Assembly (NCBI GenBank): GCA_016936655.1
Contig: JAFGXL010000028.1
Coordinates: 1-64,000, forward strand
Length of the DNA: 64,000 nt
DNA from: Nitrospirota bacterium
GTDB lineage: Bacteria; Nitrospirota; Thermodesulfovibrionia; Thermodesulfovibrionales; Dissulfurispiraceae
Direction of reading: 5' to 3'
Both the position numbers and the translations under genes were made by a program. This document shows, piece by piece, positions 44,896 through 48,899 of this stretch; within the stretch, counting starts at the first letter, position 1; every line of letters starts with the position of its first letter. The notes under the pieces are model-generated. The model was not told where the DNA came from, did no database searches, and saw nothing but the letters and a program-made list of their open reading frames with translations.

Positions 44896-46503
44896 TTAAT
44901 TTGAAGAATTGTCTTTCATAAAACACATCGGATCTTTCTGTCTGAATATATCCAGACCAAAACTGTTTGCAACAGCAAGACATCCGCCGCATACCGGCCT
45001 TATTTCACACTCAGCGCATTCGGTAGGACCCATACGGTATTTTTCAGCAATTTCTGAATCATAAATCTGCAGCAGATTATACGTATTAATATCACCGATC
45101 TTTGATGGAAATTTGCGGCAGGCATGCACCTCGCCATCGGGCAGTAGTGACAGAAAATTAAACGCTGCGGAACAGCCATGTCCAGCGCATCCTCCAAACA
45201 GTTCTTTGCATTTATCTCTAAGCAGGATATTTATAAGATTATCCTTGCATGTCAGCACATCATTAACCTCAGATTCTTGAAGAAAATCTTGCAGGAATTT
45301 CCTGTACTCTTCTTTATCAGGAAGCAGCATATTATGAGCTTCTCCAACAATTGATAGCCTGTTGAATGTAAAAAGATCTGCCCTGCCCTGCAGTGTTCTT
45401 GCCAACGGTATTACCTGATCCATATTTGCCCTGCTGAGAGTCAGCATAACCATAGAATAGATATCAAACTCCTTCAACAGATCCAAAAAAACGAGGGTTC
45501 TGTCAAAATGCCCCTCTCCCCTCACATAGTTATTGTATTCTGCAAGGCCTTCGAGACTCACCTGATAAAATACCGGCTTCTCGATACTAACAATATCTTC
45601 AAGCGCTTCAGAGCTTACAGGGTTGCCTAAAACAGCGAGTGCAAATCCTCTGAATGATGCCTCGCTGTATATTTTTTTGAAATCAGGGTGTAAAAAAGGG
45701 TTGCCTCCGGAAAATGAGACCTGGCCTGTTACATTCTTAGCTGTGCAAAAGTCATAAAGCTGATCAAGTATTTTAACAGCTGAATCGAAACTAACATTTG
45801 CCCTGTCAGACCTGTCGTAGCAGTGTCTGCAGTGCAGGTCACATGACTGGGTTATATGCCACTGAAGCGTAAAGACATCAGAGCTGAAAAATCCCTGATC
45901 TATATTTTTACCGCGAGGATAGCTTAATGATCTTCTGATCTTCGATTGCTGTTCAACAAGAGCGCCTCTTGCAGTGCTGTTTCTGAGCGCGCAATATAGT
46001 GGCCATACAGTTGTTTCAGCAGCTTTGGCAACATCCCTCAAATCGAGTCCTTCAACAACTATCTTTAGTGCAAGCAGCATCTCATCTGTAGCGTCCTCAA
46101 CAATAATATCTGCCCTCCCTGATTGTTTGTAAACAACAACAAATCCGTCTTTTTTGACAGGCTCTGATTGATTATTTTCTTTAGGGATTATTATGCTGGG
46201 CAAATTCATCCATGATACAGGAACGATTTTAAGAGTAGGATTAAGAGCGAACTTCTTTTCATCCATGCTTGCAGGATTTGAAAATACTGATGCATTGTGA
46301 ACAGCGAGCTCTACTGATGCAAGATCTGCTATATACGGATACATCTTATCAAGATCATTGTGTGATTTTAGTCTGGATGTAAACACTACAGGATCAATAT
46401 CTTGTGAATTTACGGATGAAAGCTGACCCCAGATATTATCTGGAATCAGCTTTCTGCTTTCCGGGAAAATATCTTCCAGAGACAATCTGCATTCAGTGCT
46501 CAT
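44896..46503 (-). CDS. sbtM: Thio(seleno)oxazole-type radical SAM/SPASM maturase (SbtM)
   Basis: Protein of 535 residues. Residues 1-205 are a family-specific N-terminal region that probably contacts the precursor. The radical SAM core opens with CDLHCRHCYD (C221, C225, C228 bind the [4Fe-4S] cluster and SAM) and continues with GQVSFSGGNPFLHPDF. The C-terminal SPASM region has about ten cysteines, including CAGHGCSA, CAECEIRPVCGGC and a final DPMCF, for auxiliary clusters. Relatives annotated as the selenobiotic or SbtM family modify small Cys/Sec peptides. Its assignment here rests on this architecture plus the two adjacent precursors with in-frame TGA codons. It begins 87 bases after sbtA1; ATG 46503 has only a weak ribosome site. 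Confidence 0.88.
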   Translation of the reverse strand: MSTECRLSLEDIFPESRKLIPDNIWGQLSSVNSQDIDPVVFTSRLKSHNDLDKMYPYIADLASVELAVHNASVFSNPASMDEKKFALNPTLKIVPVSWMNLPSIIIPKENNQSEPVKKDGFVVVYKQSGRADIIVEDATDEMLLALKIVVEGLDLRDVAKAAETTVWPLYCALRNSTARGALVEQQSKIRRSLSYPRGKNIDQGFFSSDVFTLQWHITQSCDLHCRHCYDRSDRANVSFDSAVKILDQLYDFCTAKNVTGQVSFSGGNPFLHPDFKKIYSEASFRGFALAVLGNPVSSEALEDIVSIEKPVFYQVSLEGLAEYNNYVRGEGHFDRTLVFLDLLKEFDIYSMVMLTLSRANMDQVIPLARTLQGRADLFTFNRLSIVGEAHNMLLPDKEEYRKFLQDFLQESEVNDVLTCKDNLINILLRDKCKELFGGCAGHGCSAAFNFLSLLPDGEVHACRKFPSKIGDINTYNLLQIYDSEIAEKYRMGPTECAECEIRPVCGGCLAVANSFGLDIFRQKDPMCFMKDNSSN

Positions 46504-46574
46504 GCAAGATTATGAATCATAATAACAGAGCCTGTCCATTATAAATGGATGCGCTCTCTGGAGTTTGCTCTTCA

Positions 46575-46589
46575 AGTGCGAACCGCACT
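46575..46589 (-). promoter_or_regulatory. SECIS-like hairpin for UGA codon 92 of sbtA1 (beyond the stop)
   Basis: Minus strand stem AGTGCG/CGCACT, six pairs, with loop GTT. The loop begins 22 bases after the UGA at 46608-46606 and has G in first position. It starts only one base past the TAA stop codon, so this hairpin lies wholly outside the coding region and cannot be explained by peptide coding. Confidence 0.7.
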
Positions 46590-46590
46590 C

Positions 46591-46881
46591 TTATTTTTTT
46601 GCTCCTCAGCTGCTGCCTCCTGCTGGCTTTGCATCTTCTGGCTTAACACCTTTAGGAGCAGCTTTTTTCTTCTTGTCCTTCTTCTTTTCAGCGCCAACTG
46701 CGCTGTCTTTTTTAGCGCCTCAGCCGCTCTGTCCTGCCTTGATCTCTTTTTTGGTGTCGCCGGCACCAGCAGCTCCGCCTCAGCCGGAAGCAGCGATGCT
46801 CTGAGATGGCACACCAGCTCCAGCAATAAGGCCAGCAATGCCTATCCCTGCAAGCATAGTTTTCAAATACTCTTTTTCCAT
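46591..46881 (-). CDS. sbtA: SbtA-family RiPP precursor peptide 1 with three in-frame UGA (Sec) codons
   Basis: Reading through TGA gives a peptide of 96 residues with U at 34, 54 and 92 (codons at 46782-46780, 46722-46720, 46608-46606). The leader MEKEYLKTMLAGIGIAGL is followed by a Gly/Ala-rich stretch and three core sites: ASGUGGA, QSGUGAK and SSUGAKK, the last next to the TAA stop. Lys/Ala-rich spacers separate them. The leader motif LAGxGxAxLxAG is shared with precursor 2, which shows that the frame is real. GGAGGGG lies three bases before ATG 46881. It sits directly upstream of sbtM. SECIS-like hairpins follow each UGA. Antisense frames here are shadows. Sec insertion would need SelA, SelB, SelC and SelD, which are not in the window. 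Confidence 0.88.
46690..46704 (-). promoter_or_regulatory. SECIS-like hairpin for UGA codon 54 of sbtA1
   Basis: Minus strand stem AGCGC/GCGCT, five pairs, with loop AGTTG. The loop begins 20 bases after the UGA and has G in second position. The distance and the early loop G fit the usual model of bacterial SECIS elements. A competing stem nearer the UGA (GCGCT/AGCGC with a nine-base loop) is also possible. Confidence 0.6.
46752..46768 (-). promoter_or_regulatory. Weak SECIS-like hairpin for UGA codon 34 of sbtA1
   Basis: Minus strand stem TGGTG/CACCA, five pairs, with loop CCGGCGA starting 16 bases after the UGA. The first loop G is in third position, so the match is weaker than at the other sites. 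An overlapping alternative is TGCTG/CGGCG with loop GTGC, G first, 13 bases after the UGA. Confidence 0.4.
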
Positions 46882-46930
46882 GCACCCCTCCTGTTTAATT
46901 TGGTAGTCCGCTAAAAGCGGAAGTAAAAAA

Positions 46931-46960
46931 ATAAGGTTTCAGCTGCTGCCGAAACCTTAT
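46931..46960 (-). terminator. Terminator/attenuator between the two sbtA genes
   Basis: A perfect 10-bp stem (46931-46940 with 46951-46960) is followed by six Ts on the minus strand. It lies after the sbtA2 stop and SECIS hairpin and 49 bases before sbtA1, with no room for an obvious promoter between. The maturase and sbtA1 would then depend on read-through, leaving sbtA2 in excess. The loop and downstream arm contain GGCAGCAGCTGA, identical to the last Sec site of both peptides. Confidence 0.82.
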
Positions 46961-46974
46961 TTATCTTGATCAAT

Positions 46975-46989
46975 GGCGCTGACCGCGCC
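46975..46989 (-). promoter_or_regulatory. SECIS-like hairpin for UGA codon 63 of sbtA2 (beyond the stop)
   Basis: Minus strand stem GGCGC/GCGCC, five G-C pairs, with loop GGTCA. The loop begins 21 bases after the UGA at 47008-47006 and has G in the first two positions. The whole hairpin lies after the TAA stop codon (46993-46991). Confidence 0.72.
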
Positions 46990-46990
46990 G

Positions 46991-47194
46991 TTATTTTGAA
47001 CCGCCTCAGCTGCTGCCTGAAGGCTGCTTTGGCTGCTGCTCCTGTGTTTGAGTGCTCCCGGCACCCTTTTTAGCTCCTCAGCTGCTTCAGCTGCTTGTTC
47101 CTGTGGTCGCACATCCGCTGATAAGCACTGAACCTGCCATCAGGCTTGCCAGACCGACTCCAGCAAGAATCTTTCTGATTTCAGTAAGTTCCAT
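46991..47194 (-). CDS. sbtA: SbtA-family RiPP precursor peptide 2 with three in-frame UGA (Sec) codons
   Basis: Reading through TGA gives a peptide of 67 residues with U at 36, 39 and 63 (codons at 47089-47087, 47080-47078, 47008-47006). The leader MELTEIRKILAGVGLASLMA resembles that of precursor 1. It then reads LISGC, which looks like a lipobox with the only cysteine at residue 28. Core sites are TSSUSSUGAKK and GSSUGGSK, the last just before the stop. AAGGAGG lies seven bases before ATG 47194, an excellent ribosome site. The gene is first in the locus: it is followed by a terminator, then sbtA1 and sbtM. Without Sec insertion the product would stop after 35 residues. Confidence 0.88.
47050..47066 (-). 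promoter_or_regulatory. SECIS-like hairpin serving UGA codons 36 and 39 of sbtA2
   Basis: Minus strand stem GGGTGC/GCACTC, six pairs with one G-T wobble, and loop CGGGA with G second. The loop begins 17 bases after UGA 39 and 26 bases after UGA 36. One hairpin could therefore serve both codons. Confidence 0.65.
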
Positions 47195-47299: not shown

Positions 47300-47328
47300 A
47301 GCCTATCAATACATTGTGCTGATGTCAA
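47300..47328 (-). promoter_or_regulatory. Possible promoter of the sbtA2-sbtA1-sbtM locus
   Basis: On the minus strand a perfect TTGACA (47328-47323) is followed after 17 bases by TAGGCT (47305-47300), a poor -10 match. The rest of the gap 47195-47355 is AT-rich with no gene. Confidence 0.35.
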
Positions 47329-48809: not shown

Positions 48810-48899
48810 TGGCGGAGGGGGTGGGATTCGAACCCACGGTAGAGTTGCCCCTACAACGGTTTTCAAGACCGCCGCTTTCAACCGCTCAGCCACCCCTCC
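48810..48899 (-). tRNA. tRNA-Ser (anticodon UGA)
   Basis: Class II tRNA of 90 bases including an encoded CCA (48812-48810). The 7-bp acceptor stem is GGAGGGG with CCCCUCC, the D arm contains GGCTGAGCGGTTG, the anticodon loop is CTTGAAA (anticodon TGA, reading UCA), the variable arm is long, and the T arm contains GGTTCGAATCC. The anticodon is UGA, not UCA, so this is not the selenocysteine tRNA. Confidence 0.96.

Follow-up and report, generated by a model that had tools for sequence, protein, structure and literature searches.

The closest described systems are the SbtA/SbtM thio(seleno)oxazole RiPPs (precursor family TIGR04081, maturase family TIGR04082), which Lewis et al. reportedly described in 2021 (Biochemistry 60:3347). 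With a characterised SbtM, both Cys- and Sec-containing peptides lose four hydrogens (PMC11002830), and the entry for SbtA in a review table reads SGUG with 2 Sec (PMC13188914). RiPPs made by MNIO enzymes offer a second point of comparison, namely the bufferins and oxazolins (PMC12452194) and DAG-RiPPs such as DybA and NedA (PMC12636315); the latter study is a mining survey of MNIO (and some AIP) precursors in which neither radical SAM enzymes nor selenium is mentioned. Here we analyze a 64,000-nt stretch of DNA (the window) from an uncultured Nitrospirota bacterium that carries two sbtA genes, sbtA1 and sbtA2, both of which are genuine Sec-coding RiPP precursor genes of this already known family. 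For the locus as a whole, we favor with good confidence an SbtA/SbtM-type selenium RiPP pathway in which SelB reads the UGAs, SbtM makes selenooxazoles, and the leader directs delivery to the envelope.

Locus, family membership and relatives

The genes lie on the minus strand in the order sbtA1, sbtA2, sbtM, with the following features:

47300..47328, minus: candidate promoter TTGACA-17-TAGGCT, also conserved 5' of sbtA in sister genome L051
47201..47206, minus: sbtA1 ribosome site AGGAGG
46991..47194, minus: sbtA1, 67-aa precursor with Sec36/39/63 and lipobox LISGC (Cys28)
47078..47095, minus: exact 9-nt tandem repeat, two copies of AGCAGCTGA, encoding SSUSSU of SbtA1 (U36/U39)
46929..46962, minus: strong hairpin resembling an intrinsic terminator, followed by a T tail, in the gap between the two sbtA genes
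46887..46892, minus: sbtA2 ribosome site AGGAGG
46591..46881, minus: sbtA2, 96-aa precursor with Sec34/54/92 and no Cys
44896..46503, minus: sbtM, 535-aa radical SAM/SPASM maturase (TIGR04082)

A preliminary description of this DNA had proposed two precursors hidden by in-frame TGA codons beside a maturase gene. The locus is real, with the correction that its strand is the minus strand. Reading TGA as U reproduced the 96- and 67-aa peptides with U34/54/92 and U36/39/63. Every U lies in S-(S/G)-U as claimed, with Gly after five of the six and Ser after U36, and both leaders contain the shared motif LAGxGxAxLxAG. The good ribosome sites reported are the AGGAGG sequences immediately 5' of both ATGs; both genes terminate in TAA, and sbtM does follow on the same strand, starting 87 nt past the sbtA2 stop. 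Because of the terminator-like hairpin between the two precursor genes, the sbtA1 product may be made in excess. The sister genome, a Nitrospiraceae MAG, retains the promoter-like TTGACA-17-TAnGCT and encodes a single SbtA with two Sec, matching the first and last U of SbtA2; thus either the window genome gained SbtA1 and the second of the three Sec in SbtA2, or L051 lost them.

Assignment to the thio(seleno)oxazole family, also part of the preliminary description, holds above curated cut-offs for SbtM (681.4 bits vs. TIGR04082, cut-off 350, with positions 1–516 of the 516 in the profile covered) and for SbtA2 (43.4 bits vs. TIGR04081, cut-off 30.5), while SbtA1 falls slightly short (28.9–29.8 bits, the lower value being 1.6 bits below the cut-off). 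SbtA1 clearly matches a leader profile of 30 relatives, itself built with SbtA1 included, and the two precursors are the only TIGR04081 matches in the whole genome. The source assembly (2.0 Mb, 97% complete) contains selA, selB, selD and tRNA-Sec (anticodon TCA). Two findings had been named beforehand as able to overturn the Sec reading, absence of the Sec-insertion genes and a frame not conserved in homologs; both were looked for, and the genes are present and the frame is conserved. The selD product (L009, G000:C18) is itself a selenoprotein, with Sec17, and the loop of the selD hairpin (CGGCG) also occurs in several sbtA hairpins, with near-equal UGA spacing. A tRNA gene of the window, tRNA-Ser(TGA) at 48814-48899, scores 48.7 bits against the Rfam tRNA-Sec model RF01852 (gathering threshold 47); as a tRNA-Sec it was rejected as a false positive of that model, ARAGORN assigning it to Ser.

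A contig search with one SbtM query returned a single relative, and our survey covered Nitrospirota. Of 396 genomes sampled across the phylum, 27 encode an SbtM above the TIGR04082 cut-off, as do 22 of 231 from the class, and a search with a leader profile recovered 30 SbtA precursors at 25 sbtM loci. Five SbtM loci have no precursor. Two of these (L078, L082) are at or near contig ends; the other three (L079, L080 and L081, in genomes G016, G025 and G006) encode SbtM-like proteins that score above the cut-off and lack the first 195 residues, i.e., the N-terminal domain. No SbtA was found near these three genes, whose products possibly act on another substrate.

The 30 precursors contain 68 in-frame TGAs, 67 of them likely Sec, and 65 of the 68 come straight after S or G. 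Two precursors have one TGA, 20 have two, six have three, and two have four. Past the TGAs, the frame, the S-(S/G)-U motifs, an SGxKK-like end and the stop are kept in 28 further precursors. The proposed check for TGA/TGC exchange gave one site, the third motif of L069, where Cys replaces Sec; at the third motif of L064 the replacement is Glu. In L077 (5564-5929), one TGA (U67), five codons past the last Sec and immediately 5' of the hairpin belonging to the Sec codon before it, probably acts as a genuine stop in a gene whose earlier TGAs are read as Sec. The six Sec of the window locus are the most among the 25 loci, but its earlier characterization as a dense case is overstated, since precursors with several Sec, and tandem ones, are commonplace in the family: L065 and L074 have four Sec per peptide, and five of the 25 loci, spread over three distinct regions of the SbtM tree, carry tandem precursors.

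Hairpins downstream of the UGA codons

Hairpins were searched for and scored with the loop starting 12–35 nt 3' of each TGA. Five of the six sbtA UGAs in the window have a SECIS-like hairpin of their own; U36 has none at the usual distance and faces that of U39:

47048..47068, minus: GGGTGC-CGGGA-GCACTC, for U39 and U36 (loop at +17 from U39, +26 from U36)
46972..46992, minus: GGCGC-GGTCA-GCGCC, for U63 (loop 3' of the TAA)
46750..46770, minus: GGTGCCGGCGACACC, for U34 (one C-A mismatch)
46687..46707, minus: CAGCGC-AGTTG-GCGCTG, for U54
46572..46592, minus: AGTGC-GGTTC-GCACT, for U92 (loop 3' of the TAA)

Scores of at least 17 were obtained for 50% of TGAs, compared to 8% of control positions within those genes and 2% for shuffled sequences. 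At 48 of the 68 TGAs the hairpin has the form GTGC-nGKn-GCAC, or a compensated version of it, with the loop 17–23 nt past the UGA, and loop position 2 is G in all 48. The 43 distinct hairpins have 88.7% paired cells (vs. 75.7% for shuffled sequences and no more than 47% once the partners are slid), and both-sided changes occur at all 7 stem pairs. Where the last UGA of a precursor has a scored hairpin, that hairpin's loop falls beyond the stop codon in 26 of 27 cases, so protein constraint cannot account for it. These elements agree with the published bSECIS model, which calls for G in the first two positions of the loop, in many cases followed by G or U, at 16–37 nt from the UGA (PMC13188914). 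When the whole genome was scanned with the hairpin model, the four perfect window sites ranked top (the model includes those four). Mean folding energy 3' of the UGAs is the same as in control windows of those genes, only the positioned hairpin being different, and an Rfam search at the locus returned nothing real. Conservation and covariation together support decoding by SelB of the in-frame UGAs as Sec in both sbtA mRNAs, at hairpins approximately 17–22 nt downstream.

The common hairpin is absent at about 20 TGAs, mostly internal ones of one family, f25 (L059, L063, L064, L072). Some UGAs of this family, such as U44 of L064, have a different hairpin that starts within the UGA, perhaps a second SECIS class.

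For the SSUSSU stretch of SbtA1, either one hairpin decodes both U36 and U39, or U36 mostly terminates. Poor decoding of U36 is a serious contender, if somewhat short of an even chance: the exact 9-nt repeat and the loop at +26, beyond the 17–23 nt span of the 48 scored hairpins, are as expected if a duplication made a SECIS-less UGA, in which case SbtA1 would mostly end at 35 residues and the full-length peptide would be rare. Against this, +26 is within the 16–37 nt permitted by the bSECIS model, and two UGAs per hairpin are also found in L065 (U67/U69) and L069 (U37/U42). The locus offers a natural setting in which to ask whether a single bacterial SECIS can act on two UGAs.

Leaders, maturase and a proposed route to the envelope

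Judged by sequence, the leaders resemble signal peptides, and 16–18 of the 30 carry a lipobox Cys. A lone Cys occurs at leader positions 23–29 in 18 of the 30, with Gly before it in 17, and 16 of these 18 leaders fit the PROSITE lipobox pattern (the mean for shuffles is 6.7, and not one of 2000 reached 16). Its codon is TGT or TGC and never TGA, Asp never follows it, and Cys is nearly absent from the cores. Most Cys-less leaders finish in an Ala/Ser-rich stretch, e.g., AxA. In all five tandem loci the lipobox-type precursor comes first and the Cys-less one lies beside sbtM, and the two types alternate over the SbtM tree. The host genome has lspA and lgt.

These leaders are also highly conserved, and their N-regions contain acidic residues (net charge 0–2), weaker than in textbook signal peptides. 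Both features would suit a leader that is purely a RiPP leader, cut by an unlinked protease from precursors that are simply Sec-coding SbtM substrates, with an incidental lipobox-like Cys. We consider this unlikely given how tightly the Cys is confined in position and preceded by Gly, its codon usage, the lack of a following Asp, its near absence from cores, and the alternation of the two types across the tree. We infer instead that the SbtA leader serves both as the site recognized by SbtM and as a signal peptide.

The SbtM radical SAM motif CxxxCxxC (C221/C225/C228) and the SPASM/C-terminal Cys residues 439, 444, 462, 496, 499, 505, 508 and 527 are invariant in 24 sequences. An AlphaFold2 model (mean pLDDT 86.9) has as its closest solved folds SuiB, CteB and SkfB, all peptide maturases. 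In this model, residues 116-184 begin with two paired strands, continue through three helices and end in a further strand, an arrangement compatible with a leader-binding domain; the N-terminal region alone had no match by sequence among PDB chains. SbtM would bind the conserved leader, probably via its N-terminal domain, and, by analogy with the characterised enzyme, would oxidize each S-(S/G)-Sec to a selenooxazole with loss of four hydrogens.

Around the precursors, SbtM alone is conserved in relatives. No conserved protease, exporter, immunity or regulator gene was found around sbtM in the neighborhoods of relatives, nor was a metal, redox or transport gene linked to sbtA/sbtM found in the neighborhoods searched. 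Four f25 loci (L059, L063, L064, L072) share a conserved MsrA-like gene that is oriented divergently from sbtA and recurs only within that family. If the leader doubles as an export signal, as its sequence suggests, no dedicated protease or transporter would be needed. The lipobox, together with the lack of any other conserved gene, points to SbtA1 as a membrane lipoprotein, cut and lipidated at Cys28 and retained in the membrane, and to SbtA2 as a peptide released to the periplasm. The more specific proposal, that SbtA peptides form a selenium branch of the lipoprotein-RiPPs, their SbtM-made selenooxazoles reaching the envelope through the general signal-peptide pathway in a conserved pairing of a lipid-anchored with a soluble form, and with one SbtA1 SECIS serving two UGAs nine bases apart, is put forward tentatively. 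We found no report of a lipoprotein-RiPP nature for SbtA in the literature searched. Such a pairing would give the selenium RiPP family a likely cellular address and make its function testable.

By analogy with the thiooxazole bufferins, the likeliest role may be soft-metal binding in the envelope, a suggestion we regard as rather speculative. That the products are antimicrobial or signaling peptides seems improbable: the old name selenobacteriocin is used in PMC13188914 and the peptides are small and Gly/Ser-rich, but immunity, exporter and regulator genes are not conserved around sbtM. Although TGA ends 19 of 43 open frames of at least 200 aa in the window, the idea that the sbtA TGAs are ordinary stops, giving short leader-like peptides or none and a downstream frame due to chance, can be dismissed in view of the frame, motifs and SGxKK-like end retained in 28 homologs, the covarying hairpins, the Cys in L069 and the complete Sec machinery. 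Recoding of TGA as Trp was ruled out, as TGA terminates many normal ORFs.

Comparison with known systems

The locus shares with known SbtA/SbtM RiPPs a maturase above the family cut-off, the leader family, an S-G-U-G type motif and Sec decoding; it differs in having two precursors with three Sec each and one SSUSSU. SbtM resembles SuiB, CteB and SkfB in its succession of N-terminal region, radical SAM core and SPASM domain, with only 16–20% sequence identity to them. Those three enzymes make carbon-carbon or thioether crosslinks.

Bufferins and oxazolins likewise have an N-terminal signal peptide, some lipoprotein forms and a periplasmic destination, and form their thiooxazole from a Cys adjoining Gly (PMC12452194). 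They use an MNIO enzyme and Cys, in clusters with partner proteins, whereas this locus has a radical SAM maturase, Sec, and no other conserved neighbor. In DAG-RiPPs, as may be the case here, a RiPP core follows a lipobox signal peptide, and related precursors switch between SPI and SPII signals (PMC12636315). SbtA1 has the features by which their lipobox is recognized (LISGC closing a hydrophobic leader, with lspA and lgt in the host), but DAG-RiPPs have MNIO enzymes and Cys cores. Relative to all of these, the selenium RiPP system itself is known; what is new is the family-specific set of covarying SECIS hairpins, through which an RNA search can find hidden sbtA genes, together with the pairing of lipobox and soluble forms and the question of a shared SECIS.
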